Source: Roseovarius gahaiensis (GTDB lineage: Bacteria; Pseudomonadota; Alphaproteobacteria; Rhodobacterales; Rhodobacteraceae). Taken from it: 64,000 nucleotides of DNA. Under the pieces are notes generated by a model. It saw only the letters and a program-made list of their open reading frames with translations. It searched no databases and was not told the origin of the DNA. The DNA lies in contig NZ_JAAORB010000003.1 of assembly GCF_011601345.1 (NCBI RefSeq), forward strand, positions 124,001 to 188,000, read 5' to 3'. A program made the position numbers and the translations under genes. This document shows positions 1 through 19,407 of this stretch, one piece after another (position 1 is the stretch's first letter; each line of letters opens with the position of its first letter).

Positions 1-629
1 GCACGCGGGTTGAGCCGCTGGAGGCGCTGGCCAAAGAACTGGGCGAGCGGGCGCATATTCTGCCCTGCAACCTTGGCGATGCCGAGGCGGTCGAGGCCCT
101 GCCAAAGCAGGCGATCGAGGCGATGGGCGGATTGGATATACTGGTCAACAACGCCGGGATCACCCGCGATCAGATTTTCATGCGCATGTCCGACGAGGAA
201 TGGGCGCAGGTTCTGGATGTCAACCTGACCTCATCGATGCGGCTGTGTCGTGGCGTGATGCGCCCGATGATGAAGGCTCGTTGGGGGCGGATCATCAATA
301 TCAGCTCGATTGTCGGGGCCACGGGCAACCCGGGGCAGGCCAATTATGCCGCGTCCAAGGCGGGGCTTGTGGGGATGACGAAATCCATCGCCTATGAAGT
401 GGCCAGCCGGGGCATTACCGCCAATGCGGTTGCGCCGGGCTTTATCGCCACGGCGATGACCGACAAGCTGACCGATGATCAGAAAGACAAGATCAACGCG
501 CAGATCCCGGCGGCCCGCATGGGCACCCCCGAGGAAATCGCGGCCGCGGTTCTTTACCTTGCCAGCCCGGAAGCAGGCTATGTGACGGGCACGACCCTGC
601 ACGTGAATGGCGGCATGGCCATGATCTAA
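1..629 (+). CDS. fabG: 3-oxoacyl-ACP reductase FabG, 5' end outside window
   Basis: NADPH-dependent ketoreductase of type II fatty acid synthesis (classical SDR, cytosol). The reading frame is open from base 3, so the start and the N-terminal glycine-rich cofactor loop lie upstream of the window. Visible are the LVNNAG motif, the catalytic serine in INISSIVG, and the active-site Tyr and Lys in NYAASK (Tyr codon 345-347, Lys codon 357-359). The C-terminus has the VTGTTLHVNGGMAM pattern of FabG. Position just upstream of acpP and fabF supports the fatty-acid assignment over other SDRs. Confidence 0.95.
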   Translation, partial: TRVEPLEALAKELGERAHILPCNLGDAEAVEALPKQAIEAMGGLDILVNNAGITRDQIFMRMSDEEWAQVLDVNLTSSMRLCRGVMRPMMKARWGRIINISSIVGATGNPGQANYAASKAGLVGMTKSIAYEVASRGITANAVAPGFIATAMTDKLTDDQKDKINAQIPAARMGTPEEIAAAVLYLASPEAGYVTGTTLHVNGGMAMI

Positions 630-661
630 AGGCCATTGGCGTGGCAACGACAGTGGGAATC

Positions 662-710
662 ACTTGCGACCGCGCTTTGCAGGCCAGCCTTCATTGGCCC
701 GGTCGCAAGT
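662..710 (+). other. stem-loop downstream of fabG
   Basis: ACTTGCGACCG (662-672) is perfectly complementary to CGGTCGCAAGT (700-710). Inside, GGCCA (682-686) pairs with TGGCC (695-699), leaving a 9-nt bulge on the left arm and an 8-nt loop. It lies 33 bases after the fabG stop. There is no following T run, so it may protect the fabG 3' end or terminate weakly rather than act as a canonical intrinsic terminator. Apart from this hairpin and the acpP promoter candidate, nothing was recognised in the 450 bases between fabG and acpP. Confidence 0.55.
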
Positions 711-891
711 TGCAATATGTCAGGGCCATGCAATCCGGCCGGCGTGCGGTATTGATCCGTCGTGATGCAGAAAATGCCGGGTTTGTTTCGCAGCACCAGA
801 GGTTTAACCGAAGGGCCGGGCTTGCAATCACCATGCAGCCGGGGTTGGGTTTTTGGGCCAAGTCACTGGCCAACAGGCTGGGCGAAAGGAT

Positions 892-919
892 TTGCCAACG
901 CCGCGCCATGTGCTATAGG
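892..919 (+). promoter_or_regulatory. putative sigma70 promoter of acpP
   Basis: TTGCCA (892-897) and TATAGG (914-919) are separated by 16 bases. They lie about 160 bases upstream of the acpP start, in the only non-coding stretch before it. Acyl carrier protein is highly expressed and usually has its own promoter. The assignment rests on pattern only. Confidence 0.45.
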
Positions 920-1079
920 CGGCGCAGATCGTCCGGGGGATGACACCCGGAGCCCCCGGGCAACCTTCTGTGACGAAAAGATACAGCCGCCCCACGGGGC
1001 ACAACCAAGGCCGCGTCCCGCCGGGGGCAAGGGCACCAAATCGGGTCGGCAGACCCCGAAGTAAATGAGGATTATGACC

Positions 1080-1313
1080 ATGAGCGATATCGCAGACCGC
1101 GTGAAGAAAATCGTTGTTGAGCACCTTGGTGTGGAAGAAGACAAGGTAGCCGAGAACGCTTCGTTCATCGACGATCTGGGCGCAGACAGCCTTGACACGG
1201 TCGAGCTGGTCATGGCCTTCGAAGAAGAATTCGGCATCGAAATCCCCGATGACGCAGCCGAAACCATCCAGACATTCGGCGACGCGGTGAAGTTCATCAA
1301 CGAAGCGTCCTAA
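1080..1313 (+). CDS. acpP: acyl carrier protein AcpP
   Basis: 77-residue acidic four-helix carrier of fatty acyl chains. The [12 protein letters not shown] motif places the phosphopantetheine serine at residue 37 (codon 1188-1190), the usual position. Two upstream in-frame ATGs (1065, 1074) exist, but the Shine-Dalgarno-like TGAGGA at 1065-1070 is correctly spaced only from the ATG at 1080, which gives the family-typical [10 protein letters not shown] start. A strong intrinsic terminator follows, so it is probably a monocistronic, highly expressed gene. Confidence 0.96.
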
Positions 1314-1343
1314 GCCGCTACCTTATCCTTTTCGGATGAGAAC

Positions 1344-1374
1344 AAGGCCCCTGCCATAACGGCAGGGGCCTTTT
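1344..1374 (+). terminator. intrinsic terminator of acpP
   Basis: GGCCCCTGCC (1346-1355) and GGCAGGGGCC (1361-1370) form a perfect 10-bp stem with loop ATAAC. It is preceded by AA and followed by TTTT, extending the stem by A-T pairs. It lies 30 bases after the acpP stop. Confidence 0.9.
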
Positions 1375-1501
1375 GCGTTGGGCGGCGCGAACAGACCCTA
1401 TCATGCCGATTTGAAAACACCGTCACAGGCAAGGGAGGTGCACAGTGGCAACGGGTCCGGCCGTGCCGGGCGCGTCATATGCAACGAAAGGTCCAACTGT
1501 C

Positions 1502-2245
1502 ATGATCATCTACCCGACCCTTGAACTGATGAATGGCAAATGCGTGTCGCTGACGCGTGGCCGACTGGATGCGCCGGTGATCTGGCATGTGGACCCCGTC
1601 GAAACCGCCCGCAGTTTCGCGGCAGCGGGGGCCGATTGGATGCATATCACCGATATCGACGCGCTGCGTGGCGAGGGCGACAATGACGCCTTGATCGAAG
1701 AGATCATCCGCGCGGTGGGTATCCCGGTGCAATTGGGCGGCGGTTTCCGCTCGCGCGAGAGGGTGGCCCAATGGATTGATCGCGGCGCCGGGCGTATCGT
1801 GATCGGAACGATGGCGGCACATGATCCCGACCTTCTGCGGGAACTGGCGAAATTCCACCCTGATCAGATTGTTCTGGCCGTCGACATCCACGACGGGTCG
1901 GTGGTGACAGAAGGCTGGAAAATCCGCAGCGCGTTCCAGCCCGACAGCTTTGTTCAGGCGTTTGATGATGCGCCATTGGCCGGAATCATCGTCACCGATG
2001 TCGATGCCGATATCGAAGACAGTGATGGCAGCCTTGGTGTTATCAGCAGCCTTGCTGCGCAAACCCGTCACCCGGTGATTGCTCGGGGCACCGTGCGCAG
2101 CGCGGATGATGTGGCGCGTCTGAAATACGTGCCCAATATCGCGGGCACATTGATCGGGCGAGCCTTGTTATCAAAGGATGTCGATCTGGCCGATGCGGTT
2201 GCTTTTGCACAAGCCGAGACGGAACCCACGGCAGAATTTCAGTAA
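1502..2245 (+). CDS. divergent HisA/HisF-like TIM-barrel protein
   Basis: 247-residue protein of the HisA family (phosphoribosylformimino-AICAR isomerase fold). The start ATG 1502 gives MIIYPTLELMNGKCVSLTRG, which aligns with HisA N-termini; a GTG at 1445 would add 19 residues with no family match. The second catalytic Asp region is present (AVDIHDG, Asp128). The first catalytic Asp of the usual ALDLIDG motif is Glu8 here, and the usual TDI.RDGT phosphate loop reads TDVDADIEDSD (165-175). Lying between acpP and fabF with no other his gene nearby, it is probably a paralogue with a changed role, not the housekeeping histidine enzyme. The function is unknown. Confidence 0.8.
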   Translation: MIIYPTLELMNGKCVSLTRGRLDAPVIWHVDPVETARSFAAAGADWMHITDIDALRGEGDNDALIEEIIRAVGIPVQLGGGFRSRERVAQWIDRGAGRIVIGTMAAHDPDLLRELAKFHPDQIVLAVDIHDGSVVTEGWKIRSAFQPDSFVQAFDDAPLAGIIVTDVDADIEDSDGSLGVISSLAAQTRHPVIARGTVRSADDVARLKYVPNIAGTLIGRALLSKDVDLADAVAFAQAETEPTAEFQ

Positions 2246-2368
2246 GCCCCGCGCGAAATCGTCGGCGAAAGAGTGTCGAAGGCGGCTGCCACATGCAGGG
2301 CCGCTCTTGCCCCCCATGGTCAAGGCGGGTTATGAGCAGCCGGGAAGCGATAAGGAAAGGGCAGCAGC

Positions 2369-3628
2369 ATGCGTCGAGTGGTTGTTACCGGGCTGGGATT
2401 GGTCACACCGTTGGCCGCTGGCGTCGAGGAAACGTGGTCACGTCTTCTGAAGGGCCAGTCCGGAGCGGGGACGATCACCCGTTTTGATCCCGAGAACGTG
2501 ATCACGAAATACGCCTGCGAAGTGCCTTTGGGCGATGGCAGCGACGGCACATTCAACGCAGATGACCACATGCTGCCCAAAGAGCGCCGCAAGGTAGATG
2601 ATTTCATCCTTTTCGGCGTCGCCGCTGCGGATATGGCCGTCAAAGATGCGGGCTGGACCCCGGAGGACGAGGAAAGCCGCCTGCGCACAGGGGTGATGCT
2701 TGGCTCTGGCATTGGTGGCCTGCGGTCGATCGAGGAAACCACCTTGCTGATCCGCGACAAGGGCGCGCGCCGGGTGTCGCCATTCTTTATTCCCGGCGCG
2801 CTGATCAACCTGATCAGCGGGCAGGTCAGCATTCGCTACGGTTTCAAGGGGCCGAACCATTCGGTTGTCACCGCCTGCTCCACCGGGGCGCATGCCATCG
2901 GCGATGCGGCGCGCCTGATTCAGTTCGGCGATGCCGACGTGATGGTCGCCGGCGGTGCCGAGGCGGCGATTTGCGAAATCGGGATCGCGGGCTTTAACGC
3001 CTGCAAGGCGCTCAGCACCAAGCGCGCAGATGACCCCAAGGCGGCCAGCCGTCCGTATGACGCGGACCGTGACGGGTTTGTCATGGGTGAAGGCGCGGGC
3101 GTTGTCGTGTTGGAGGACTACGAGCACGCCAAGGCGCGCGGGGCCAAGATCTATGCCGAGGTGCTGGGGTATGGCCTGTCGGGGGATGCATACCACATCA
3201 CCGCGCCGTCAGAGGATGGCGATGGTGGATACCGGGCGATGAGCATGGCGCTGAAACACGCGGGTATTACGCCCGATCAGGTGGATTACATCAACGCGCA
3301 TGGCACCAGCACCATGGCAGATACCATCGAATTGCAAGCCGTCGAGCGTTTGATGGGCGATGCCGCGTCAAAGGCCACGATGAGTTCGACCAAATCGTCG
3401 GTCGGGCACCTGTTGGGCGCGGCTGGCGCGATCGAAGCGATCTTTTCGATCCTTGCCCTGCGCGATCAGGTAGCACCGCCCACGATCAATCTGGACAACC
3501 CGGCCGTGGACACGCCGCTTGATCTGGCCCCCAATGCCAAGCGCGAGCGCAAGATCGACGTGGCGATTTCCAACAGCTTCGGCTTTGGTGGCACAAACGC
3601 CTGCCTTTGCATCGGGAAACCGCGCTGA
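2369..3628 (+). CDS. fabF: beta-ketoacyl-ACP synthase II FabF
   Basis: 419-residue condensing enzyme that elongates malonyl-ACP in fatty acid synthesis. The thiolase-fold Cys-His-His triad is complete: Cys170 in VTACSTGAH, His311 in NAHGTST and His347 in VGHLLGAAG, with Lys342. An AAGGAAAGG ribosome-binding site (2352-2360) precedes the ATG. Its stop codon overlaps the mltG start by one base, so the two are translationally coupled. Confidence 0.97.
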   Translation: MRRVVVTGLGLVTPLAAGVEETWSRLLKGQSGAGTITRFDPENVITKYACEVPLGDGSDGTFNADDHMLPKERRKVDDFILFGVAAADMAVKDAGWTPEDEESRLRTGVMLGSGIGGLRSIEETTLLIRDKGARRVSPFFIPGALINLISGQVSIRYGFKGPNHSVVTACSTGAHAIGDAARLIQFGDADVMVAGGAEAAICEIGIAGFNACKALSTKRADDPKAASRPYDADRDGFVMGEGAGVVVLEDYEHAKARGAKIYAEVLGYGLSGDAYHITAPSEDGDGGYRAMSMALKHAGITPDQVDYINAHGTSTMADTIELQAVERLMGDAASKATMSSTKSSVGHLLGAAGAIEAIFSILALRDQVAPPTINLDNPAVDTPLDLAPNAKRERKIDVAISNSFGFGGTNACLCIGKPR

Positions 3629-4782
3629 TGTGGCGACATATCGCGTCGAACTTCTTGACGTTTCTTGTGGTGATCGTGTTCCTGATCGGGGGCGTGATCC
3701 TTTGGGGGCAATCCGAGTATAACGCGACCGGCCCACTGGACGAACCGATCTGCCTGCAGGTCGAGCGTGGTAGCAACATGCGTCTCATCTCGCGCCGGTT
3801 GGCGGATGAAGGTGCGATTACGAATGATACGATCTTTCGTGTGGGGGCAGAATATAGCGACCGGGTTTCGTTGTTGAAGGCCGGTAGCTGGCTGATCCCC
3901 GAGGGTGCCAGCATGTCGCAAATCACCGACCTGATTACGAAGGGCGGGGCCAGCACATGCGGCACTGAAATCGTGTATCGCGTCGGCGTTAACAGCACAG
4001 GCATCCAAGTGCGCGAACTGGACCCGACCACCAGCCGCTATGTCGAAAAAGCGGCCTTTGGCCCCGGTGATGACAACGTGCCGGATCTGTTTCAGGACGT
4101 GCGCGAAAAGGCCGATACGCGCTATCGGATTGCCGTGGCGGAAGGCGTGACAAGCTGGCAGGTGGTCAATGCGCTGACGGCGGTTGATGTGCTGACAGGC
4201 GAGGTGCAGGACATCCCCGCCGAAGGCAGCCTTGCGCCGGACAGCTATGAAGTGCGCGATGGTGACAGCCGGGCCAGTGTGATCGCGCGTATGCGCGACG
4301 CGCAAGATGTGATTCTTGCCGCGGCGTGGGAGTCGCGGCAAGAAGGTCTTCCGCTGGATAGCCCAGAGGAGGCGCTTATTCTGGCCTCGATCATCGAGAA
4401 AGAGACAGGCATTGCCGCCGAACGGCGGCAAGTGGCCAGCGTGTTCGTCAACCGCCTGAATCAGGGGATGCGCCTGCAAACCGACCCAACGGTGATTTAT
4501 GGCATCACCCAAGGTGAGGGCGTATTGGGCCGCGGCCTGCGCCAAAGCGAATTGCGCGCAGAAACGCCTTGGAACACGTATGTCATTGCTGGTCTGCCCC
4601 CGACACCTATCGCCAATCCGGGCCGGGCCAGCATCGAAGCGGCCGTCAATCCCGATAACACCGATTATATCTTTTTCGTCGCGGATGGGACCGGCGGGCA
4701 TGCCTTTGCCACAACGCTGCAAGAGCATAACCGGAACGTCGCCCGCTGGCGCGAGATCGAGGCAGAGCGCGCAGCCGAGTGA
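3628..4782 (+). CDS. mltG: endolytic murein transglycosylase MltG
   Basis: 384-residue inner-membrane lytic transglycosylase that cuts nascent glycan strands. One N-terminal membrane segment (about residues 7-27) is followed by a LysM-like region and the YceG domain. The catalytic motif IIEKET (255-260) and the family signature MRLQTDPTVIYG (281-292) are intact. The start overlaps the fabF TGA (TGATG). An upstream in-frame ATG at 3607 lies inside fabF and is less likely. The acpP-fabF-mltG order is common in Proteobacteria. Confidence 0.95.
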   Translation: MWRHIASNFLTFLVVIVFLIGGVILWGQSEYNATGPLDEPICLQVERGSNMRLISRRLADEGAITNDTIFRVGAEYSDRVSLLKAGSWLIPEGASMSQITDLITKGGASTCGTEIVYRVGVNSTGIQVRELDPTTSRYVEKAAFGPGDDNVPDLFQDVREKADTRYRIAVAEGVTSWQVVNALTAVDVLTGEVQDIPAEGSLAPDSYEVRDGDSRASVIARMRDAQDVILAAAWESRQEGLPLDSPEEALILASIIEKETGIAAERRQVASVFVNRLNQGMRLQTDPTVIYGITQGEGVLGRGLRQSELRAETPWNTYVIAGLPPTPIANPGRASIEAAVNPDNTDYIFFVADGTGGHAFATTLQEHNRNVARWREIEAERAAE

Positions 4783-4833
4783 GGCATCGTAGTGTCAGCC
4801 CTGCGGTCAAGGCGTATAAATCTTTGGGTTTAT

Positions 4834-4873
4834 ACCATCTGATTAGTCCCGTTGGGGCGATCAATCAAATGGT
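4834..4873. promoter_or_regulatory. inverted repeat, candidate operator upstream of polysaccharide operon
   Basis: ACCATCTGATT (4834-4844) and AATCAAATGGT (4863-4873) are inverted copies with 10 of 11 positions matching, separated by 18 bases. They sit just upstream of the putative promoter in the AT-rich 315-base gap after mltG. No T run follows, so a regulator-binding site is more likely than a terminator. The rest of the gap shows no gene. Confidence 0.45.
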
Positions 4874-4890
4874 CTAAGCTATTGAAAAAA

Positions 4891-4918
4891 TTGACTTACT
4901 TTGAATTTCATGTCTTAT
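4891..4918 (+). promoter_or_regulatory. putative promoter of the polysaccharide operon
   Basis: TTGACT (4891-4896) and TCTTAT (4913-4918) with 16-base spacing lie in locally AT-rich sequence about 180 bases before the first gene of the uxs-galE-GT2 operon. The long leader between promoter and start codon shows no obvious fold. Pattern-based call. Confidence 0.4.
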
Positions 4919-5097
4919 TTGACCCGTGGGGTTTATCGGATGCCTTGGTGTCCGTTTATTGGTGGGAAGGAAGGCTTACGAGTACGCCGTAACTAAACCA
5001 AATCAATAGCGGCCTATTACCTATAGATTTTTGAATTTTTGCTTTCCCATGACAGGCGCTGTCGAGCTTTCGGGCCGCTGTCCATTTTGGACCGCAG

Positions 5098-6153
5098 ATG
5101 GGGGACGTTAAATTGAAACTGATTGATTCACATCCGTCGTGCGTAGCGTTGGCACAAAATCGGCCCATTGGGGCCAAGCGTAAAACTGTTGTTGTCACCG
5201 GGGGGGCCGGATTTCTGGGCTCTTACCTTTGTACTTTGCTGGTTGACGCCGGCCATATAGTCATCTGTGTTGACGATCTTTCTACCGGCCGGATGTCCAA
5301 CATCGCGCCTTTGCAGGGCCGGGTAAATTTTACCTTCATGCAGCATGACGTGGTCAATCCGCTGGACGTATCCGGCCCGGTCGACGAGATTTTTAATCTT
5401 GCTTGCCCGGCGTCACCGCCCAAGTATCAGATTGACCCAATACATACGTTCAAAACAAGCGTTTTTGGCGCGATCAATATGCTGGATCTGGCGTTGGCAC
5501 AGGGGGCCAGAATTTTGCAGGCCTCCACCTCGGAGGTGTATGGAGATCCGGAAATCTCGCCACAGCCCGAAAGCTACACCGGGTCGGTCAACACGGTTGG
5601 GCCGCGGTCATGCTATGATGAAGGCAAACGCGCGGCGGAAACCTTGTTTCATGACTACCACGCACGCCACGGTGTCGAAGTCCGTATCGCGCGTATTTTC
5701 AACACATATGGCCCCAACATGAGCCCCGATGACGGGCGCGTTGTGTCGAATTTCATCATGCAGGCCCTGCTGGGAGAGGATCTGACGGTTTACGGGGACG
5801 GGATGCAGACCCGGTCTTTTTGTTACCGTGACGATCAGATTGCGGGGTTGATGGCCCTGATGGCCGCGCCTCTGGGCACAGTCATGCCGATCAACATCGG
5901 CAATCCCGAAGAATTCACCATGTTGGAACTGGCCCACAAAGTGCTGAACCTGACAGGATCAGAGGCGCGATTGGTGTTCCGCGATCTGCCTGTGGATGAT
6001 CCGCGTCAGCGTCGCCCAGATATCAGTTTTGCCAAGCGGTATCTGGAGTGGCAGCCGGTCGTTTCGCTGGATGAGGGGCTTGCCCGAACGACCGCGTATT
6101 TCCAAAACGAATTGCTGGATATGAAGGCACCGGTTCTGGTCGGGGCGGAGTGA
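5098..6153 (+). CDS. UDP-glucuronate decarboxylase (UDP-xylose synthase)
   Basis: 351-residue extended SDR that oxidises and decarboxylates UDP-glucuronate to UDP-xylose. The Rossmann motif TGGAGFLG is at 34-41. UXS-type signatures follow: [37 protein letters not shown] (142-150), [11 protein letters not shown] with catalytic Tyr173 and Lys177, and [10 protein letters not shown]. The LACPASPP segment separates UXS enzymes from GalE and dTDP-glucose dehydratases. ATG 5098 is the only ATG before the nucleotide-binding motif. It adds about 28 residues to the usual start and has a weak ribosome-binding site, so the true start could be later at a non-ATG codon. First gene of a four-gene operon. 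Confidence 0.9.
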
Positions 6154-7163
6154 TGAAACCGGGTGTTCTGGTGACAGGAGGGGCCGGGTTTATCGGCGCG
6201 CATGCATGCAAATGGCTGGCCGAGGCCGGGGTGCGACCGATTGTTTTGGATAATCTGTCGACGGGTCATGCCGATGCGGTGAAATGGGGCCCTTTGGTGC
6301 GCGCTGATGTGCGGGATCGCGACGCCGTGGCAAAGGCCCTGCGCGATCACCGCGTGCAAACGGTCATGCATTTCGCCGCCTCTGCCTATGTCGGGCAATC
6401 CATGCAAGATCCGGCGCTCTATTACGACAACAACGTCGCCGGGATGATTGGGCTTTTGGCCGCGTGTCGCGATACCGGGGTGAGGCAGGTTGTCCTGTCC
6501 AGCAGTTGTGCCACTTACGGCACCCCTGACCATCTGCCGATCACCGAGAACACGCCGCAGCGCCCGATCAACCCCTATGGTTGGACCAAACTGATTTGCG
6601 AACAGATGCTGGCCGATCATGCGCGGGCCTATGGTGTGTCTTACGTGGCTTTGCGGTATTTCAACGCGGCTGGTGCCGATCCGGACGGTATGCTGCGCGA
6701 ACGCCACGACCCCGAAACGCATCTGATCCCGCTGGCTTTGATGGCGGCGGCAGGACAGATCGAGCGTTTGGACGTGATGGGCGGCGATTACGACACGCCC
6801 GATGGCACCTGCATTCGCGATTATATCCATGTGGCCGATCTGGCTGCCGCGCATGTGGCGGCGTGGCGTCATGTGCAGGCGTCCGGGCCGGGCGCGGCGT
6901 TGTCGGTCAATCTGGGGACGGGGCAGGGCGCTTCGGTTCTTGAGGTGATCGAAACGGTGCAAAAGGTGACAGGCCGCCGGGTGCCTTACGTGATGCGCGA
7001 CAGGCGGCCCGGTGATCCGGCCATTTTGCTGGCAGATGCGTCAAAGGCGCAGCAATCGTTGGGTTTTGCGCCAAAATGGCCCAATCTTGCGGCGATGGTT
7101 CGCGATGCGGCGCCAGGCTTTGGACTTGAGGTGCGCGATGCGAAACATTTACAGCGCACCTGA
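6153..7163 (+). CDS. galE: UDP-hexose/UDP-pentose 4-epimerase (GalE type)
   Basis: 336-residue extended SDR interconverting C4 epimers of UDP-sugars. Visible are TGGAGFIGAHA (8-18), HFAASAYVGQS, SSSCATYG, catalytic Tyr142 and Lys146 in NPYGWTK, and the substrate-loop motif RYFNAAGADP. The start overlaps the preceding stop by one base. Because the partner gene makes UDP-xylose, the substrate may be UDP-xylose (giving UDP-arabinose), as for uxe of Sinorhizobium, rather than UDP-glucose. Sequence reading alone does not settle this. Confidence 0.88.
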   Translation: MKPGVLVTGGAGFIGAHACKWLAEAGVRPIVLDNLSTGHADAVKWGPLVRADVRDRDAVAKALRDHRVQTVMHFAASAYVGQSMQDPALYYDNNVAGMIGLLAACRDTGVRQVVLSSSCATYGTPDHLPITENTPQRPINPYGWTKLICEQMLADHARAYGVSYVALRYFNAAGADPDGMLRERHDPETHLIPLALMAAAGQIERLDVMGGDYDTPDGTCIRDYIHVADLAAAHVAAWRHVQASGPGAALSVNLGTGQGASVLEVIETVQKVTGRRVPYVMRDRRPGDPAILLADASKAQQSLGFAPKWPNLAAMVRDAAPGFGLEVRDAKHLQRT

Positions 7164-8985
7164 TATGGCCGCCCATCCGGGACGGATCCCGCCCAAGGCA
7201 GACAGCCCCAGAATTCTGGCACCTTTGATGGAGGGGCCGCAGAGGGTTAAATATATGTGTCTTGTGCTTTTGTGGGCTGTTTTGGCTGCGTGGTTCTGGC
7301 GGTGGTGGCTACAGCCCGAGCATATCATCGGCATGGGGCGCTATATTCTGGTAACGCTTTGCATTTTCTGGCTTTTCTTTCTTCAGGCCTATTTTATCGT
7401 GCTGTTTTTGAACGGTCGGAAGGTGGTGGCATCCTTCGATGATCTGGGGCAGCCGCGCATTGCGATGGTGGTCACAAAAACCCCGTCCGAGCCGTTTGCG
7501 ATGGTGAAAACCACGCTTGAGGCGATGCTGGCGCAAGATGTGCCGCATGATACATGGCTGGCCGATGAAGACCCGCAGCCAGACACAATCGACTGGTGCC
7601 GCACGCATGGCGTGCGAATTTCCAGCCGAAAGGGCCGGGATGCGTATCATCGGACGGAATGGCCCCGCCGAACCCGGTGCAAAGAGGGCAATCTGGCGTT
7701 TTTCTATGACAACTGGGGCTATGACGATTATGATTTCGTGTCACAGCTCGATGCCGATCACGTGCCGCAGCCCAGTTACCTGCGCGAACTGATGAAGCCC
7801 TTTGCCGATCCGTCGATTGGCTATGTATCTGCCCCGTCGATTTGCAATGCCAACGCGGTTCAAAGTTGGGCGGCGCGCGCCCGTCTGTATATCGAGGCGA
7901 TGTTTCACGGCGCGTTGCAGGCGGGGTATAGTGGCGGATGGGCCCCGATGTGCATCGGCTCGCATTACGCCGTGCGCACCCGTGCCTTGCGGCAGATTGG
8001 CGGTCTTGGCCCAGAACTGGCCGAGGACCATTCGACCTCGCTGATCATGAACGCCAATGGCTGGCGCGGAGTTCATGCGATGAACGCCATAGCGCATGGG
8101 GCTGGGCCGGGCACCTTGGCGGATATGGCCACGCAGGAATTTCAATGGTCGCGCAGCTTGGTGACGTTGTTGTTGCAATACACACCGCGGTATCTGGCGG
8201 GGCTGCCCGCGCATTTGAAGTTTCAGTTTGTGTTTTCGCAGATGTGGTATCCAATCGCGGCGCTGTTCCTGCTGGCGATCTATACGATGCCGGTTGTGGC
8301 GCTGACATTCGATGTGCGCTACGCCGATGTCACCTATCCGGGTTTTATCGGCCATGCGGTGCCAGCCACTTTGGCCTTGATCCTGTTGGTATGGGTGGCG
8401 CGGCGTGACGGCTTTTTCAGGCCGCATGATGCCAAAATCCTGAGTTGGGAAAAAATCCTGTTTGCGGCGGCGCAGTGGCCATGGATGTTCTGGGGGTGCG
8501 CTGTTGCGGTCTGGGACCGGTTGACAGGCCGGTTTGTGGATTTTCGGATAACGCCCAAGGGCGATGCGGTGGAGGCGCGGCTGCCGCTGCGGTTTTTGGT
8601 GCCTTATGCGGCGATTGCGCTGTTTTGCATGTGGCCGATATTAACCGTGGATAATGTCACGAACGCCGCCGGGTTCTATATTCTGTCCCTGTTGAACGCC
8701 GCTTTGAACGTCGCCTTGGTGGTGGTCATTGTTTGGCATCACCTGAAAAACGCCGGGATCGGGGCTTTGACCCAGCCTTTGGTTTTGGGGGCGCAGATTG
8801 CGTTATGTTTTGGCTTGGTCGGATTGGGGATGATGGCGCTTTGGATGCGGGGGCCAGAGTCGCTTTATGCGCTTATGCTGGGCCTTGATGCCATGCATGT
8901 GGTGGAAACCCAGCACATCGTGTCCGGGGCCGGGCGCGCGCCGCCCGGTGAAGTGAAATACGTTTTCAAACTGGGTTGGGATTAG
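7138..8985 (+). CDS. membrane glycosyltransferase family 2, polysaccharide synthase-like
   Basis: 615-residue processive-type GT2 with two N-terminal membrane segments (about 38-58, 68-91), a cytosolic catalytic domain and about six C-terminal segments, as in cellulose-synthase relatives. Catalytic motifs: DED (143-145), DAD (205-207), the general-base Asp297 in AEDHSTSL, and QEFQW (333-337) in place of the usual QxxRW. The start ATG 7138 has GAGG six bases upstream and overlaps galE by 26 bases; ATG 7165 is an alternative. Context suggests it polymerises a pentose- or hexose-containing exopolysaccharide across the inner membrane. An ApsS-like role is inferred from gene order. Confidence 0.85.
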   Translation: MRNIYSAPDMAAHPGRIPPKADSPRILAPLMEGPQRVKYMCLVLLWAVLAAWFWRWWLQPEHIIGMGRYILVTLCIFWLFFLQAYFIVLFLNGRKVVASFDDLGQPRIAMVVTKTPSEPFAMVKTTLEAMLAQDVPHDTWLADEDPQPDTIDWCRTHGVRISSRKGRDAYHRTEWPRRTRCKEGNLAFFYDNWGYDDYDFVSQLDADHVPQPSYLRELMKPFADPSIGYVSAPSICNANAVQSWAARARLYIEAMFHGALQAGYSGGWAPMCIGSHYAVRTRALRQIGGLGPELAEDHSTSLIMNANGWRGVHAMNAIAHGAGPGTLADMATQEFQWSRSLVTLLLQYTPRYLAGLPAHLKFQFVFSQMWYPIAALFLLAIYTMPVVALTFDVRYADVTYPGFIGHAVPATLALILLVWVARRDGFFRPHDAKILSWEKILFAAAQWPWMFWGCAVAVWDRLTGRFVDFRITPKGDAVEARLPLRFLVPYAAIALFCMWPILTVDNVTNAAGFYILSLLNAALNVALVVVIVWHHLKNAGIGALTQPLVLGAQIALCFGLVGLGMMALWMRGPESLYALMLGLDAMHVVETQHIVSGAGRAPPGEVKYVFKLGWD

Positions 8986-9027
8986 AAAACATTACGGCAC
9001 AAGCTGTTGTGGGGAAAGGAGTTCGAA

Positions 9028-9933
9028 ATGCGACATTTAACAAAAGCCATGTTTGCAAAGGCGCTGAGTGGGACATTCTTGGCCGGGTTCTTGGCCGGCA
9101 GCGCGGGTGCAGCACCGCCCGGTGAAACGCCGTTCGGGGTCTATGATCCCGAGGGGCAGTTTTCGGATGACAGTGACGTGCAGATCGAACATTTGTTCCT
9201 GCCGTGGGAGGATGTGTTCCTACCCAGTCTTGTTGATGCTGATGTATATGCTTTGGCGCGCGCACGCGCCTTGTTGGTCACAATCGAGCCATGGACATGG
9301 ACGCGCAGCGAACGCAACACGCCTCAGAGACTTCAACAGGGGTTACAATCGGGCGAGTATGATCAATACATGCGGGCGATCTGCTCGGTCCTTGGCACGC
9401 TCAATAGTCCTGTGACGGTGCGGTGGGCGCAGGAAATGGATGATAATACCACCCAGTTTACTTGGGCCAAATGGGAGCCGGGCACCTATATCGACGCGTA
9501 TAGGCGGATGGTGGATATCTGTCGCGCCGAAGCCCCGCAAGTAAACTACATGTGGTCGCCGCTTGGCTTTGAAAACATGGATGAATATTATCCCGGAGAC
9601 GATTATGCGGATCTCGTCGGGCTGTCGGTATTCGGCTTTCAGGCTTGGGAAGAAGAGATTTTGGGCAAATCACAGAGCTTTGTCGACATTCTGGAGCCGC
9701 GCTATGAGCGGGCCAAGCAGTTTGGCAAACCAATCGTTGTGGCCGAAACCGGGTTTTCGGGCGATCAGGCCTATGTCGAGGCGTGGCATAACAGCATTCG
9801 CCAGACCTATGAACAATTCCCGGATTTGGTGGGCGTCGTCTACTTTAATCAGGTCGAAGTCTATCCTTGGCCAGATGGGTTTGGGCTACCGGATTGGCGT
9901 GTGGATAACCGCGTTACAGGTGCCGACGAATAA
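9028..9933 (+). CDS. secreted glycoside hydrolase, GH26-like
   Basis: 301 residues with a signal peptide (hydrophobic stretch to about residue 28, ending GSAGA-AP). The body is a TIM-barrel glycanase resembling family GH26, with candidate acid/base Glu136 in RWAQEMD and nucleophile Glu240 in VVAETGFSG. An AAAGGAG ribosome-binding site precedes ATG 9028. It is placed 42 bases after the synthase and before a strong terminator, so it is the last gene of the operon. It likely trims, releases or edits the exported polysaccharide. Related families (GH5-like barrels) cannot be excluded. Confidence 0.8.
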   Translation: MRHLTKAMFAKALSGTFLAGFLAGSAGAAPPGETPFGVYDPEGQFSDDSDVQIEHLFLPWEDVFLPSLVDADVYALARARALLVTIEPWTWTRSERNTPQRLQQGLQSGEYDQYMRAICSVLGTLNSPVTVRWAQEMDDNTTQFTWAKWEPGTYIDAYRRMVDICRAEAPQVNYMWSPLGFENMDEYYPGDDYADLVGLSVFGFQAWEEEILGKSQSFVDILEPRYERAKQFGKPIVVAETGFSGDQAYVEAWHNSIRQTYEQFPDLVGVVYFNQVEVYPWPDGFGLPDWRVDNRVTGADE

Positions 9934-9974
9934 AACGGCGCAACCTCAAGCGCGGGATCGCAGGGCTGCATTCG

Positions 9975-10008
9975 GACGGGGCAGCTGCAAAGCCTGCCCC
10001 GTCTTTTT
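9975..10008 (+). terminator. intrinsic terminator of the polysaccharide operon
   Basis: GACGGGGCAG (9975-9984) pairs perfectly with CTGCCCCGTC (9994-10003) around a 9-base loop, followed by TTTTT. It ends the uxs-galE-GT2-GH unit. The remaining bases up to 10284 show no gene or clear signal. Confidence 0.9.
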
Positions 10009-10284
10009 AAGTAATCCAAACGATTAGGCGGCGGCACTTTAAGGGTGCACGCCAAAAATTAAGGCTTTAACACCATATTTTCGCCAAGGTCATGCGCGAG
10101 AGTCAGCCATACAAGGGCTGTTCTGGCCCGGTCGATTGACTTTAGCTGCGTAAAACCGCCACTATTGGCGCGTGGCAGGAAGGCTGTCGGACGGGGCATG
10201 ACATGTCTTGTCTGAAACTCGATAAAACCGGAACAGACGATAACCGGCATCGGGGCGGCTGCGAAACAAAACTGGAGTAGAGCA

Positions 10285-10575
10285 GTGAAACTCAATATAA
10301 TCAAGCGCTTGGCGCATATCGCGCCAGCTATCTCTATAGGTGCGGTCGCTGTTGCGGCGTCGCCGGTTGAAGCGGCTGGTGGCACCAAATCAGTAACGCC
10401 TTTGCACAAAAGCTATATGTGGGTCACGCCAATCAGCAAGGCAGAGCGTCAGGCAAGGCTGAGCCATGCACAGAAACGCCAAATTGCGCGCAATCAAAGC
10501 GCAAAGGGAAGCGGTTCGTGGATTTGTTCGCCCAGTGGATTTGGCAAGCGCGCGTCGTGTTTCACCCGCCGCTAA
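10285..10575 (+). CDS. small secreted protein of unknown function
   Basis: 96 residues starting at GTG with GGAG eight bases upstream. An N-terminal signal peptide (hydrophobic to about residue 30, cleavage likely after PVEA-A) is followed by a basic, Gln/Arg-rich middle. The compact C-terminus SGSWICSPSGFGKRASCF has two cysteines that could form a disulfide in the periplasm. I do not recognise a named family. It sits alone between the polysaccharide terminator and a lipoprotein gene in comparatively AT-rich sequence. Confidence 0.65.
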   Translation: MKLNIIKRLAHIAPAISIGAVAVAASPVEAAGGTKSVTPLHKSYMWVTPISKAERQARLSHAQKRQIARNQSAKGSGSWICSPSGFGKRASCFTRR

Positions 10576-10730
10576 GGCGGGGATTGCGCCAGTAAGTTCT
10601 TTGTTTGAAAGCAAAATTATGCTACCATCTTGAGCGTTGGTAGAAGGTTTGACTGTGCGTTCTGGCCTCCCTTTTTATGGGGGTTCAGGAGCACGCTTTT
10701 TAAAATCGCGTATTTTGTGGGGGACAAAAC

Positions 10731-10991
10731 ATGACATTTTCCAAAGTGTTCGTTTGTGGTGTAGGTCTGGCTGCATTGGCAGCCTGTGTGCCGATGGATC
10801 CGATTGAAATTGATCGGGAAAGTCTGCCGACAGCACCTGAATTTTTGCCGTGCCATCAAGTCGATGATCAGCTTGCCTATGCGGACGAAGCCGTGCGCCG
10901 GATCAGCTATTCGACCAATCCCAAAGAGGCAGCATATTGGGAAAAGCGGCAGGAACGTCTGGTCGCACGGGCCTATGAGTGTAAACGCTGA
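10731..10991 (+). CDS. small lipoprotein of unknown function
   Basis: 86 residues with a lipoprotein signal: hydrophobic segment and lipobox LAAC, lipidated Cys19. The mature part is short, charged and probably helical (YADEAVRRISYSTNPKEAAYWEKRQERL) with two further cysteines. ATG 10731 follows GGGGGAC. It is probably anchored in the outer membrane or periplasm. No family is recognised. Confidence 0.7.
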   Translation: MTFSKVFVCGVGLAALAACVPMDPIEIDRESLPTAPEFLPCHQVDDQLAYADEAVRRISYSTNPKEAAYWEKRQERLVARAYECKR

Positions 10992-10999
10992 CCAAAGAT

Positions 11000-11019
11000 A
11001 ACGCCTGATCGGGGCGTTT
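11000..11019 (+). terminator. short terminator-like hairpin after the lipoprotein gene
   Basis: AACGCC (11000-11005) pairs with GGCGTT (11013-11018), followed by TTC. A second stem just downstream (GACGCGGG 11040-11047 with CCCGCGTC 11061-11068, extended by TTTT/AAAA) has no T run. Together they probably separate the lipoprotein gene from the GTA cluster. The rest of the gap to 11286 should hold the GTA promoter, but none was recognised. Confidence 0.45.
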
Positions 11020-11286
11020 CGGACCCATCCTACAAAATGGACGCGGGTTTTGTCTAAAAGCCCGCGTCGTAAACGTGCGCGCGTCGATCAGGCGCGCTGA
11101 ATGGTTTGTCGTGATCATGGCCCCGGTGAAACCGCAGGGCCTGATACCGCCCGACCGCACCCCCCCTTTAATCAATCTTAACGCCCGATGACGCATCTTT
11201 CCGGCCTGCCAGCTGGAGGGGTGGCATGTGTGCTGTTCCCTCACTCGGACGTGACCGGGCACGCAACGCATGAGGCATGAGCACGA

Positions 11287-11628
11287 ATGGTTTTGATCAC
11301 CCCCGACGAGGGGCCCACGGGCCTGACCACCTCGATCGACTCGCTGGAACGGCAACTGTCGGACATGCGCGAGGATATCGAGATCATCTACCAAAAGATC
11401 CGTGCAGGGGATTTCGATGAATTGAAAAACGCGGCCAAGGCGACGGCGGAAATCCGACAGTGGCTGAAGATCGCGATAGAAGCGGAGGCGCAACTTGAAA
11501 AACGCAGAAAGCAGGAAAAAGGCATCGTCAACGACTATGCCCTCGACCTTGGAGAAGCACGGGCTTCGATCTGCTACCGGTTGGATCGTCTCAGAAGGGC
11601 CCGATGTTCAGGATGCGTTCCTCGATAG
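11287..11628 (+). CDS. GTA g1, small terminase-like protein
   Basis: 113-residue first gene of the GTA cluster, corresponding to RcGTA g1 (TerS-like DNA packaging protein). It is mostly helical, with a predicted coiled coil (LERQLSDMREDIEIIYQKIR) and a charged KKAKATAEIR-type second half. Its C-terminal third is overlapped in another frame by the large terminase gene. Recognition rests on position and general likeness. The ATG at 11287 lacks a strong ribosome-binding site. Confidence 0.8.
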   Translation: MVLITPDEGPTGLTTSIDSLERQLSDMREDIEIIYQKIRAGDFDELKNAAKATAEIRQWLKIAIEAEAQLEKRRKQEKGIVNDYALDLGEARASICYRLDRLRRARCSGCVPR

Positions 11629-12907
11629 TCTTGAGGAAGGCGAGCTGATGGCGCTGCCCTATCTGTTCGAGTTTTGGGCCCTTGAGCATCAATTGCCGCC
11701 TGATGGGGCGTGGACCAACTGGATCATCATGGGGGGGCGTGGCGCGGGGAAAACCCGCGCCGGTGCCGAATGGGTGCGCGCCCAAGTGGAAGGCGACAAG
11801 CCGCTGGATGCCGGGCGCTGCCGCCGTTTGGCCCTGGTGGGTGAAACCATCGATCAGGTGCGCGAGGTGATGATTTTCGGCGAAAGCGGGATCATGGCCT
11901 GTTCGCCGCCCGACAGGCGCCCTGACTGGCAGGCCAGCCGAAAGCGGCTGATCTGGCCCAATGGCGCGGTGGCACAGGTGTTTTCGGCGCATGAACCCGA
12001 GGGCTTGCGTGGCCCGCAATTCGACGGGGCGTGGGTGGATGAACTGGCCAAGTGGAAAAAGGCCCGCGAGACGTGGGATATGTTGCAATTCGGGTTGCGG
12101 CTGGGCGAGCATCCGCAGGTGTGCATCACCACGACGCCGCGCAACGTGGGTGTGCTAAAGGATCTGGTGCGTCAGGACAGCACGGTTGTCACCAACGCCC
12201 CGACCGAGGCCAACAGCGCCTTTCTGGCACAGTCTTTCCTTGAAGAAGTGCGCGCGCGCTATGCAGGCACGCGGTTGGGCCGTCAGGAACTGGACGGCGT
12301 GTTGCTGGAGGATGCCGAGGGCGCGTTGTGGAATTCGGCCATGCTTGAGGATGCAAGGCGCGAGGCCCCGCCCGATCTGGACCGGATCGTGGTGGCCGTG
12401 GACCCGGCGGTGAGTGGCAAAGACGGATCGGACGAATGCGGGATCATTGTGGCGGGGGCCTGCACGCAAGGCCCAGTTCAGGAGTGGCGGGCTTGGGTTT
12501 TGGCCGATTGCAGCGTGGCCGCGGCCAGCCCGGTGGGCTGGGCCACTGCCGCGATCCGCGCGATGGAGCAATTTGGGGCCGAGCGTCTGGTGGCCGAGGT
12601 CAACCAAGGCGGCGATCTGGTGGCGCAGGTGATCCGGCAGGTGGACCCCATGGTGCCGGTCAAGGCCGTGCATGCCAGCCGCGGCAAGGTGGCCCGCGCC
12701 GAGCCTGTCGCGGCGTTGTATGAGCAGGGCCGGGTGCATCATCTGCGCGGCCTTGGCCGTCTGGAGGACCAGATGTGCGCCATGACCGCGCAGGGCTATG
12801 AGGGCAAGGGCAGCCCCGACCGGGTGGATGCGCTGGTGTGGGCGCTGCACGAGTTGATGATCGCGCCAGCGGCGAAATGGCGGCGGCCTCAGGTGCGCGC
12901 GGTCTGA
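11495..12907 (+). CDS. GTA g2, large terminase subunit
   Basis: ATPase/nuclease motor that packages about 4-5 kb of host DNA headfully. Walker A GRGAGKT is at 81-87; the Walker B-like WVDELAKW lies about 70 residues on; the RNase H-type nuclease domain starts at VVAVDPAVSG. The TTG start at 11495 is chosen because GGAGG (11484-11488) lies six bases upstream. ATG 11537 is the next candidate and would shorten the protein by 14 residues to 456. It overlaps g1 by 134 bases. Confidence 0.92.
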   Translation: MKNAESRKKASSTTMPSTLEKHGLRSATGWIVSEGPDVQDAFLDSLEEGELMALPYLFEFWALEHQLPPDGAWTNWIIMGGRGAGKTRAGAEWVRAQVEGDKPLDAGRCRRLALVGETIDQVREVMIFGESGIMACSPPDRRPDWQASRKRLIWPNGAVAQVFSAHEPEGLRGPQFDGAWVDELAKWKKARETWDMLQFGLRLGEHPQVCITTTPRNVGVLKDLVRQDSTVVTNAPTEANSAFLAQSFLEEVRARYAGTRLGRQELDGVLLEDAEGALWNSAMLEDARREAPPDLDRIVVAVDPAVSGKDGSDECGIIVAGACTQGPVQEWRAWVLADCSVAAASPVGWATAAIRAMEQFGAERLVAEVNQGGDLVAQVIRQVDPMVPVKAVHASRGKVARAEPVAALYEQGRVHHLRGLGRLEDQMCAMTAQGYEGKGSPDRVDALVWALHELMIAPAAKWRRPQVRAV

Positions 12908-12996
12908 TTTACAATTCTTAAACCTTTCGGGGTCTGATGCTGGGCAAGACGTGAAAACGATTTCGACTGCGGGCAGACCCAAGGAGACGAGCCAAG

Positions 12997-14196
12997 ATGA
13001 TACTGGATTTTTTCCGAAGCGCCGGATCGGCAGGGGCCGCGGACCGGGATGTGCCTGAGACCAAGGCCAGTGCCGCCGGGCCGGTGATGGCGTGGCACGG
13101 TGCGGGCCGCGTGGCCTGGAGCCCGCGCGATACCGTGACGCTGACGCGCACCGGGTTCAGCGGCAACCCGGTTGGGTTTCGCTGTGTCAAGATGCTGGCC
13201 GAGGCGGCAGCCGCGCTGCCATTGGTCTTGCAGGATGTCGAGCAACGCTATGCGCGCCATCCGCTGTTGGAACTGGTGCGCCGCCCCAACCCGGCGCAGG
13301 GCCGCGCCGAATGGCTGGAGGCGCTTTATGGTCAGCTTTTGCTGACTGGCAATGGCTATGTCGAGGCTGCGGGCGGCGGCGAGGGCAGTGTTCCAATGGA
13401 ACTGCATGTGCTGCGCTCGGACCGGATGAGCGTGGTTCCGGGCGCGGATGGCTGGCCGGTGGGGTATGAATACACGGTCGGCGGGCGCAAGCATCGCTTT
13501 GATGTCAGTGCGGGGCATCCAGCGATCTGTCATCTGAAATCGTTTCACCCGCAAGATGACCATTACGGGCTTTCGGCTTTGCAGGCCGCCGCGCAGGCGG
13601 TGGATGTGCACAATTCCGCCAGCCGCTGGTCGAAAGCGCTATTGGACAATGCGGCGCGGCCCAGTGGTGCGATTGTCTACAAAGGGGCCGAGGGGCAGGG
13701 CAGCCTGAGCACTGATCACTATGATCGGTTGGTCAGCGAGATGGAAAGCCATCATCAGGGCGCGCGCAATGCTGGGCGTCCGATGCTGCTGGAAGGGGGG
13801 CTGGACTGGAAGCCGATGGGGTTTTCGCCCTCGGACATGGAGTTTCAGAAAACCAAGGAGGCCGCCGCGCGCGAGATCGCGCTGGCCTTTGGGGTGCCGC
13901 CGATGCTGTTGGGCATCCCGGGGGATGCGACCTATGCCAATTACGCCGAGGCCAACCGTGCATTTTACCGTCTGACGGTCTTGCCGCTGGTGGCACGAGT
14001 GACCGGGGCGTTGTCGGACTGGCTGTCGGGCTTTGCCGGTGACGTGCTGGAGCTGCGCCCCGATCTCGATCAGGTGCCGGCGCTATCGGCCGAACGCGAT
14101 GCCCAATGGGCGCGTGTGGCCGGGGCTGATTTCCTGAGTCCGGCGGAAAAGCGGGCCTTGCTGGGGCTGCCCGCGCTGGAGGCGGAGGATGGCTGA
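12997..14196 (+). CDS. GTA g3, portal protein
   Basis: 399-residue HK97-type portal that forms the DNA entry ring. Typical segments include GFRCVKMLAEAAAALPL, HPLLELVRRPNP, the KSFHPQDDHYGLSALQAAAQA region and GVPPMLLGIPGDATYANYAEA. AAGGAG precedes ATG 12997. An 89-base gap separates it from the terminase. It overlaps the g3.5 start by eight bases. Confidence 0.93.
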   Translation: MILDFFRSAGSAGAADRDVPETKASAAGPVMAWHGAGRVAWSPRDTVTLTRTGFSGNPVGFRCVKMLAEAAAALPLVLQDVEQRYARHPLLELVRRPNPAQGRAEWLEALYGQLLLTGNGYVEAAGGGEGSVPMELHVLRSDRMSVVPGADGWPVGYEYTVGGRKHRFDVSAGHPAICHLKSFHPQDDHYGLSALQAAAQAVDVHNSASRWSKALLDNAARPSGAIVYKGAEGQGSLSTDHYDRLVSEMESHHQGARNAGRPMLLEGGLDWKPMGFSPSDMEFQKTKEAAAREIALAFGVPPMLLGIPGDATYANYAEANRAFYRLTVLPLVARVTGALSDWLSGFAGDVLELRPDLDQVPALSAERDAQWARVAGADFLSPAEKRALLGLPALEAEDG

Positions 14197-14428
14197 GCGT
14201 GACCCCGGTGAGCGCTATGGGTTTGAGCCGTTCGACTGTGCCCCGGCGCTGAGGCTTGAGGCGCATGAGCGGGTGGCGCGGTTGCAACATGATGCGTTGC
14301 TGCATCGGCTGCAAAAGATCGAAGAGGCGCTGGCGCAGCTAGAGCGGCGGTTGTGGCTGGCGGTCTACGGCGTGATGGCGGCCATTCTGGCACAGGCGTT
14401 TCAGCCCCTTTTGGCGGCAATGCCCTAA
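14189..14428 (+). CDS. GTA g3.5, small head-formation protein
   Basis: 79 residues with a helical charged half (LEAHERVARLQHDALLHRLQKIEEALAQLERR) and one C-terminal membrane-type segment (LAVYGVMAAILAQAFQPLLAAM). Position between portal and protease matches RcGTA g3.5. It overlaps g3 by eight bases. Confidence 0.85.
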   Translation: MAERDPGERYGFEPFDCAPALRLEAHERVARLQHDALLHRLQKIEEALAQLERRLWLAVYGVMAAILAQAFQPLLAAMP

Positions 14429-14448
14429 GGCGGGTGATAGGTGAAAGG

Positions 14449-15012
14449 ATGAAGGTGATGGATATGGATTGCGGGCTGGAACACAAGTTCTGCCGAGGGG
14501 CTGACGATCTGGTCGTAACCGATGGCACGGTGATCGAAGGTTATGCCAGCCTGTTCGACAATCGCGACCGGGGCGGCGATATCGTCGCCAAGGGCGCTTA
14601 TGCGGCCAGCCTCAAGCGGCTGGCGCAAGAGGGGCGCGGCGTTAAGATGCTGTGGCAGCACGACCCGGGCCAGCCCATTGGCGTATGGGACGAGGTGCGT
14701 GAAGATGCGCGGGGCCTTTATGTCAAAGGTCGTCTGCTGGACGGCGTGGCGCGCGCGCGTGAGGCGGCGGCGCTGATTGCGGCCGGGGCGATTGACGGGC
14801 TGAGCATCGGCTATCGCACCGTGCGGGCGGCAAAGAACGACAGGGGCCGCAGGCTCTTGCAGGAACTGGAGCTGTGGGAGGTGTCGCTGGTGACCTTCCC
14901 GATGTTGCCCAGTGCGCGGGTGGGGGCCAAGGGCGATACGCTGGATGGCCATGACCTGCGTGATCTGGCGGCGGTCTTTGAGGGCGCCCGCCGGGAGTTG
15001 GCGCAATCCTGA
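14449..15012 (+). CDS. GTA g4, prohead protease
   Basis: HK97-family serine protease that matures the capsid. Catalytic His in WQHDPGQPIG and Ser in DGLSIGY are visible, as is the C-terminal LWEVSLVTFPM signature. In-frame ATGs at 14449, 14458 and 14464 compete; AGGTGA at 14439-14444 favours 14449 (187 residues). It lies directly upstream of its capsid substrate. Confidence 0.9.
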   Translation: MKVMDMDCGLEHKFCRGADDLVVTDGTVIEGYASLFDNRDRGGDIVAKGAYAASLKRLAQEGRGVKMLWQHDPGQPIGVWDEVREDARGLYVKGRLLDGVARAREAAALIAAGAIDGLSIGYRTVRAAKNDRGRRLLQELELWEVSLVTFPMLPSARVGAKGDTLDGHDLRDLAAVFEGARRELAQS

Positions 15013-15058
15013 CAGAAATACGCGCCGCACACCGACCTTAACCAAACGGGATCAAACG

Positions 15059-16252: not shown

Positions 16253-16264
16253 GGGATGTGCGGA

Positions 16265-16292
16265 TGGGGCGGGCGCGCGATGCCCCGCCCCA
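16265..16292 (+). other. stem-loop between capsid gene and g6
   Basis: TGGGGCGGG (16265-16273) pairs perfectly with CCCGCCCCA (16284-16292) around a 10-base loop, 12 bases after the capsid stop. There is no T run. It may protect the capsid mRNA 3' end or reduce read-through into the less abundant connector genes. The 161-base gap holds no gene. Confidence 0.5.
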
Positions 16293-16413
16293 AGGCGCGC
16301 GCCGGTTGACCCAATCGCGTTGTCCAGCTGCTCCCCTCCGACCGAGCAACGCGGGGCGCGGCGCGCGCCTGACCAGAACCACCGGAGGGGTCCGGGATTT
16401 GTGGAGAGCATCC

Positions 16414-17761: not shown

Positions 17762-17786
17762 CCCACTGAACAAGCGGAGAAACGAT

Positions 17787-18203: not shown

Positions 18204-18207
18204 GGCG

Positions 18208-19389: not shown

Positions 19390-19407
19390 GGCAAAGGGGA
19401 ACCAGAC

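Follow-up and report, generated by a model that had tools for sequence, protein, structure and literature searches.

The four genes at positions 5098–9933 of the window (the whole 64,000-nucleotide stretch of Roseovarius gahaiensis contig NZ_JAAORB010000003.1 analyzed here) constitute a variant of the aps-type operon, the arabinose-polysaccharide (APS) locus of Sinorhizobium meliloti, and the most interesting new feature of the locus is a conserved small secreted protein encoded downstream, at 10285–10575. The locus probably specifies an APS-type system that makes an arabinose (pentose) polymer, with the small protein as a probable fifth component. Genes for UDP-glucuronate decarboxylase (UXS), a UDP-sugar 4-epimerase (UXE), a membrane synthase of glycosyltransferase family 2 (GT2), and a glycanase of glycoside hydrolase family 26 (GH26), all named in a preliminary description of this DNA, were found there on one strand and, as had been claimed, tightly spaced: gaps are near zero, and the start of the epimerase gene overlaps the UXS stop codon. 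The features of the locus are as follows.

5098–6153, + strand: UXS (UDP-glucuronate decarboxylase/UDP-xylose synthase), counterpart of uxs1 (Pfam, nearest chain in the PDB)
6150–7163, start at GTG 6150 or ATG 6153, + strand: UXE, GalE-type UDP-sugar 4-epimerase, counterpart of uxe (TIGR01179, tblastn)
7165–8985, start at ATG 7165, + strand: ApsS-type processive membrane GT2 synthase (identity, tree, fold model)
9028–9933, + strand: secreted GH26 glycanase, counterpart of apsE (PF02156, fold model, conserved Glu pair)
9974–10004, + strand: intrinsic-terminator-like hairpin followed by TTTTT (folding energy)
10285–10575, + strand: small secreted protein of 96 amino acids with GTG start and a two-cysteine motif at the C-terminus (conservation next to aps loci)

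Relation to the aps operon of S. meliloti

The S. meliloti locus reads AraC regulator, UXS, epimerase, GT2, DUF995, GH26, DUF995, and its published order, in the available part of the source, is uxs1-uxe-apsS-apsH1-apsE-apsH2 (PMC7902896). Homology of the window operon to this locus, with the four genes taken as uxs1-uxe-apsS-apsH1, had been proposed beforehand. UXS, UXE, GT2, and GH26 indeed follow each other in the same order in both organisms. The GT2 is 54.6% identical to that of the S. meliloti aps operon over 98%, and both belong to one clade with 100% support in the Shimodaira–Hasegawa-like approximate likelihood ratio test (SH-aLRT); UXS and UXE are 59% (trimmed alignment) and 59.3% (tblastn) identical to their respective homologues. 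Homology and the first three labels therefore stand. The fourth does not: apsH1 and apsH2 are DUF995 proteins, and the succession DUF995-GH26-DUF995 after apsS, read against the published apsH1-apsE-apsH2, makes the window glycanase the counterpart of apsE. Thus, the preliminary description was right in its core, the aps homology, and wrong in two labels, apsH1 and the activator considered further below.

When the window GT2 was used as a tblastn query against plasmid records, 504 matched, 117 of them with a query coverage of 80% or more; the 60 matches listed are from Loktanella, Sulfitobacter, and Sinorhizobium, with 93–100% coverage and 53–57% identity. For comparison, 87 loci were assembled, comprising the window locus, six loci taken from plasmid records or from a genus-mate, and the best 80 from a GT2-alignment scan of named genomes, which had yielded at least 592 stretches (537 confirmed); these best 80 carry mostly Rhodobacterales names, and a few are rhizobial or unplaced. 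The order UXS-UXE-ApsS-GH26 is collinear in 75 of the 87; among the others, six have no UXE and six have been truncated, split, or rearranged. For 72 loci, the pairwise distances computed for each of the four proteins are correlated with each other (Mantel r 0.56–0.74; 0 of 999 permutations as high); the 15 loci left out, chosen by hand, were the six lacking UXE and nine whose reading frames are incomplete or odd. A GT2 tree of 95 sequences contrasted 87 ApsS rows, window and S. meliloti included, with eight other GT2s, namely two annotated BcsA, an S. meliloti pSymB GT2, two pAt-encoded GT2s, the second GT2 of the window's own genome, MdoH, and a lactobacillar GT2 (L026 and L027 were left out as duplicates of L074 and L103). 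All 87 ApsS rows were on one side of a branch with 100% SH-aLRT and the eight others opposite, in agreement with identities of ∼55% inside versus 22–31% outside the group; as this is a quick tree with long outgroup branches, the branching order within the outgroup is unsure.

A small two-cysteine protein beside aps loci

The preliminary description covered genes up to 9933 only and did not include a conserved small secreted protein that is encoded at 10285–10575. This 96-residue protein has a hydrophobic stretch near its N-terminus and ends in GSWICSPSGFGKRASCFTRR; its gene lies past the terminator with a ribosome-binding-like GGAG of its own. The window copy carries the motif W-I-C-S-P-S-G-F-G-x4-C-F, corresponding to [YW]-[IV]-C-[ST]-P-[AS]-G-F-G-x4-C-[FY]-x-[RN] within the last 15–20 residues across the family. 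Relatives were detected by tblastn beside most aps loci compared, and a 35-position C-terminal model matched a small protein in 78 of the 87. The model had been made from 40 rows, one of which (L027) is a copy of the L103 locus, so that 39 of the 87 loci trained it; among the 48 non-training loci, the protein was found in 39, one being L103. Four of the nine misses have less than 0.5 kb of sequence beyond the operon. The S. meliloti copy, an annotated hypothetical gene, is located beyond apsH2 on the other strand. A hydrophobic stretch precedes the motif in 76 of 78 copies, and exactly two cysteines follow the stretch in 77. According to a simple motif search, which matched 66 of the 78 rows (12 did not match), the first cysteine, counted from the C-terminus, occupies position 15 in 62 rows and position 16 or 17 in four. 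The invariant residues are encoded by several codons (e.g., four for glycine and two for cysteine in the 40 rows), as expected of selection on the protein.

The window copy had no Pfam match, the family profile had no match in the PDB, and nothing in NCBIfam exceeded its cut-off for five copies, two of which gave E values of 0.018 or weaker. A short degenerate motif pattern gave two matches in the own genome versus six for a control and was, being unspecific, not used. In the literature searched, the scope of which mostly excluded subscription papers, neither the motif or the small protein nor, among the papers listed, any aps-type system of Rhodobacteraceae or Roseobacter was described; the locus tags of the S. 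meliloti cluster led to one unrelated listing.

Occurrence of the small protein closely follows that of the synthase. In a sample of the order (390 genomes, 139 genera), it was found in 48 genomes, that is, in 43 of the 46 that have ApsS and in 5 of the 344 that lack it (in 2 of these 344 at E 1e-5), an association with a Fisher p of 6e-48 (4e-51 at E 1e-5) when relatedness is ignored. Some of these genomes probably represent training species, which renders the sensitivity partly circular; the count without ApsS is not affected. In a sample of the class (385 genomes, including the window's own), only the window's own genome gave a match below 1e-5, with two weak ones among the 384 others.

That the small protein is a passenger, that is, a neighbor kept by co-transfer and with an unrelated function of its own, is possible, if somewhat doubtful. 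Of the 41 genomes with the small protein and ApsS on one contig, 40 have it 1.2–1.9 kb downstream of ApsS on the same strand (the remaining one has it 3.6 kb upstream on the other strand), so that linkage alone could give the association, and two genomes with a strong match but no ApsS contained no aps gene in the stretch read. However, the protein persists across Rhodobacterales and in S. meliloti, there on the opposite strand; it is kept in loci where it is displaced or reversed (L035, L066, and G350) and where the operon is rearranged (L025 and L172), and the near absence of matches from the class sample also speaks against a passenger. Physical linkage and co-transfer account for part of the association; the opposite strand in S. 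meliloti and the displaced or reversed copies argue for more. Tentatively, it is quite possible that the small protein is a dedicated fifth APS component, the predicted C-terminal disulfide hairpin of which captures or anchors the polymer or aids its exit through the envelope, and that loci without UXE (see below) make a bacterial xylan, not an arabinan.

Sugar nucleotide supply, glycanase, and predicted product

The closest solved chain to UXS is UDP-glucuronate decarboxylase 2b69 (E 1.1e-106), and the epimerase scores above the cut-off of the GalE equivalog model TIGR01179 (392.8 versus 262.3 bits). Another GalE-like gene, 49% identical to the window epimerase, is present elsewhere in the genome; the UXE copy of the operon need therefore not serve housekeeping galactose metabolism. 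In the proposed pathway, UXS would convert UDP-glucuronate to UDP-xylose and UXE would convert the latter to UDP-L-arabinopyranose. ApsS, as an inverting membrane synthase, would polymerize the pentose and thread the chain through the inner membrane, by analogy with BcsA and cellulose; the secreted GH26 would trim or release chains outside the inner membrane, and the small exported protein probably binds the polymer or anchors it in the envelope. GT2 enzymes invert, and no mutase gene was recognized in the operon; an α-L-arabinopyranan is accordingly the expected product: UDP-β-L-arabinopyranose would give α-L-arabinopyranosyl bonds, which are equatorial and, we infer, cleavable by a retaining GH26.

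The glycanase exceeds the PF02156 cut-off only barely (22.0 versus 20.2 bits). Its fold model (pLDDT, the predicted local confidence, 95.6) has a (β/α)8-type fold, which, together with a conserved Glu pair, is characteristic of GH26. The pair is invariant in 63 of 63 aligned sequences (the window plus 62 of 71 eligible rows), aligns with an endoglucanase H fusion, and is taken, from knowledge of the family, to comprise the catalytic acid/base and nucleophile. Closest to the model are the family 26 lichenases 2v3g (Z 26.3) and 2vi0 (CtLic26), with Z 26.2–26.3 over 242 residues at 21% identity; their substrate is β-glucan. Further structural neighbors are AlXyn26A (7xjr, titled MLXase), a β-1,3-xylanase (2ddx), and mannanases.

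Two of these neighbors, AlXyn26A (7xjr) and the β-1,3-xylanase (2ddx), would also fit a xylan or a polymer in which xylose is mixed with arabinose (or which contains galactose), for which the epimerase tunes the nucleotide sugar pool but does not fix the product. In the same direction point the reported bifunctionality of Uxe, for which UDP-glucose is also a substrate, and six of the 87 loci with UXS, ApsS, and GH26 in which no UXE was found (L052, L066, L069, L080, L083, and L089). Three of the six are Thioclava loci; on the ApsS tree the six fall at four places, and their ApsS may take UDP-xylose or borrow an epimerase: either GalE from elsewhere gives UDP-arabinose, or the product is xylan. 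For the window such a product is nevertheless unlikely, since UXE was read in 79 of the 87 loci, plus the rearranged locus L025, and the S. meliloti product is, in the part of the report available, arabinose-containing (PMC7902896).

Several points weigh against an arabinose polymer made by an APS-type system with five components. With UDP-glucose as a second substrate of Uxe, galactose or glucose could enter the polymer. The window GH26 is just 42% identical to its S. meliloti counterpart, and, unlike the S. meliloti operon, the window locus has neither DUF995 genes (apsH1 and apsH2; none in window positions 1–20000) nor an adjoining AraC/CuxR gene; a DUF995 search of the whole genome was empty, but its control did not match either. 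The preliminary description named a c-di-GMP-responsive activator as controlling the S. meliloti genes; no CuxR-like or AraC gene was found beside the operon within 1–20000, and the best CuxR-like matches in the genome cover the helix-turn-helix only (E 5e-6 at best). The control by cyclic di-GMP (c-di-GMP) known for aps in S. meliloti from the available text of two reports (PMC9495663 and PMC8546604) can therefore not be carried over. No outer-membrane export gene was recognized, no search having been aimed at one. In the class sample, ApsS occurred in the window's own genome only, of 385, and is hence rare outside the order. The small protein was not matched in 3 of the 46 ApsS genomes of the order, one of which also has no GH26 nearby, and its linkage could reflect co-transfer of neighbors. 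Finally, S. meliloti binds Congo red and forms wrinkled colonies as its APS phenotype, whereas Rhizobium favelukesii has an aps-like cluster yet shows no Congo-red-stained or wrinkled colonies, both according to the accessible part of one study (PMC7902896).

Distinction from β-glucan synthases

The window GT2 matches the Pfam family Glyco_trans_2_3 and, weakly, BcsA, and falls far below the cut-off of the CelA equivalog model (58.4 versus 699.1 bits). In the fold model of ApsS (pLDDT 89.5), for which the best Foldseek hits are BcsA, fold and membrane GT2 architecture appear similar to those of cellulose synthase, with just two short strands predicted past the last helix; no Pfam match to PilZ was obtained for the window GT2. 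ApsS differs from BcsA further in its separate clade and in its neighbors, UXE and GH26. Its acidic motifs and a QEFQW motif are invariant in 54 of 54 aligned rows (53 of 80 ApsS rows plus the window); BcsA-type enzymes have QxxRW. The pSymB gene of S. meliloti in the tree (L117) is situated beside an adaptor gene, on account of which we take it to be BgsA, the mixed-linkage β-glucan synthase. BgsA resembles ApsS as a membrane GT2 of the same broad superfamily, but, with its identity assigned in this way, it belongs to a separate clade, and its partner is a periplasmic adaptor rather than UXS/UXE. Its product is another c-di-GMP-stimulated polymer of S. meliloti, as stated in the available part of PMC9495663.

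Grouping with cellulose or mixed-linkage glucan synthases, which had been named beforehand as contradicting the aps homology, was not seen in this tree, which contained no verified curdlan synthase. That the enzyme makes a β-glucan (cellulose, mixed-linkage, or curdlan) and is adjacent to sugar-nucleotide genes by chance would fit its weak CelA/BcsA matches and BcsA-like fold, and is highly improbable in view of the 100% clade apart from BcsA, BgsA-type, and pAt-encoded GT2s and MdoH, the invariant QEFQW, and the conserved linkage to UXS/UXE; a cellulose or BgsA-type synthase was rejected on the separate clade.

A second membrane GT2 of the window's own genome is encoded beside an adaptor-like gene on contig C45 (L002). 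It shares 62.7% identity with a pAt protein of Agrobacterium fabrum and represents a separate synthase in the group containing BgsA.

Distribution and variants of the locus

ApsS was found in 46 of the 390 order genomes (∼12%), in 30 of the 139 genera. A close copy is present in 3 of 35 genus-mates. The window ApsS is equally far from the genus-mate copies (55%) and from S. meliloti (54%), and the copies of the genus are scattered over different parts of the tree; together, this points to spread of the aps locus by repeated transfer.

In two rearranged loci (L025, positions 6486–15789, and L172, from genus-mates G007 and G010), UXS, UXE, GH26, and the small protein form one unit with ApsS apart; in G007, ApsS faces this unit and is accompanied by a second UXS. 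Genes for a PF11790-type glycosidase and a DUF995-like protein are found close to both sets. L168 (G187) has ApsS, UXE, and UXS, and neither GH26 nor the small protein was found within 14 kb. In 11 loci (L022, L023, L024, L036, L039, L041, L048, L050, L053, L054, and L060; Sulfitobacter, Octadecabacter, Litoreibacter, and others), a type I secretion-like gene and genes for a LuxR-type regulator and a small hypothetical protein lie upstream, and a Q-rich protein is also encoded near the aps operon; these genes are candidates for regulation or for a partner adhesin. As a conserved aps regulator, the LuxR-type gene was dropped, being found in these 11 loci and not in the window. Also recurrent near aps loci are PF11790 glycosidase (18 loci), Sel1-repeat (13), and sulfatase-family (9) genes, none of which occurs in the first 18 kb of the window.

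Signals, flanks, and insertion site

The strong terminator claimed for the operon was confirmed: positions 9960–10020 fold at −27.7 kcal/mol (z −4.0), with a T run 3′ of the hairpin at 9974–10004, which a simple pattern scan did not list. The promoter candidate was not recovered, as a sigma-70-type scan of 4783–5097 gave no site, such scans being weak proof. Low GC content of the flanks was found as described, 0.49 at 4751–5250 and 0.51–0.52 at 10251–11000, compared with ∼0.60 around. The junctions are the following.

4783–5097, no strand: low-GC left junction, from mltG to the operon (GC profile, short sites in relatives)
10576–11286, no strand: right junction region before phage-like (gene-transfer-agent-like) genes, with an open reading frame (ORF) at 10731–10991 (ORF and Pfam search)

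Upstream, Pfam recognized a short-chain dehydrogenase (fabG-like), a His_biosynth family protein, a ketoacyl synthase (fabF-like), and a YceG family protein (mltG); downstream, genes for a terminase, a portal protein, a prohead protease, and a capsid protein follow, presumably those of a Rhodobacterales gene transfer agent. The ORF at 10731–10991 encodes 86 residues, lipoprotein-like and without a Pfam match, and related sequences were found only in two aps loci (L028 and L038) among those compared. A link between the operon and the phage-like cluster was considered and dropped: in the fetched flanks of the 86 other aps loci (ORFs of at least 100 amino acids), none matched mltG, fabF, the ORF at 11287, terminase, or portal.

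From mltG to terminase, the distance in the window is 6.8 kb. In 9 of 39 other genomes of the genus, a single contig carries both genes in the same order, no more than 20 kb apart, and the content of the junction varies among them: five (G006, G008, G021, G031, and G032) have 0.45–0.64 kb between the two genes, and four have 1.4 (G004), 3.3 (G028), 8.1 (G034), and 16 kb (G013). No close ApsS was found in these nine, G006 giving one weak GT2 match. Compared with the short form of the site, the operon has been inserted, which supports the accessory insertion suggested earlier for this site.

Significance

These results extend a polysaccharide system known from work on a legume symbiont to 46 of 390 genomes sampled from the order (about 12%), and a pentose polymer could shape biofilms in Rhodobacterales. 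The comparison sets a conserved core (UXS, UXE, ApsS, and GH26) apart from rhizobial additions (DUF995 and CuxR), and it links a small secreted protein to APS-type loci, also in S. meliloti, where an APS phenotype exists. The naturally UXE-less loci bear on how sugar specificity is determined in a processive synthase.

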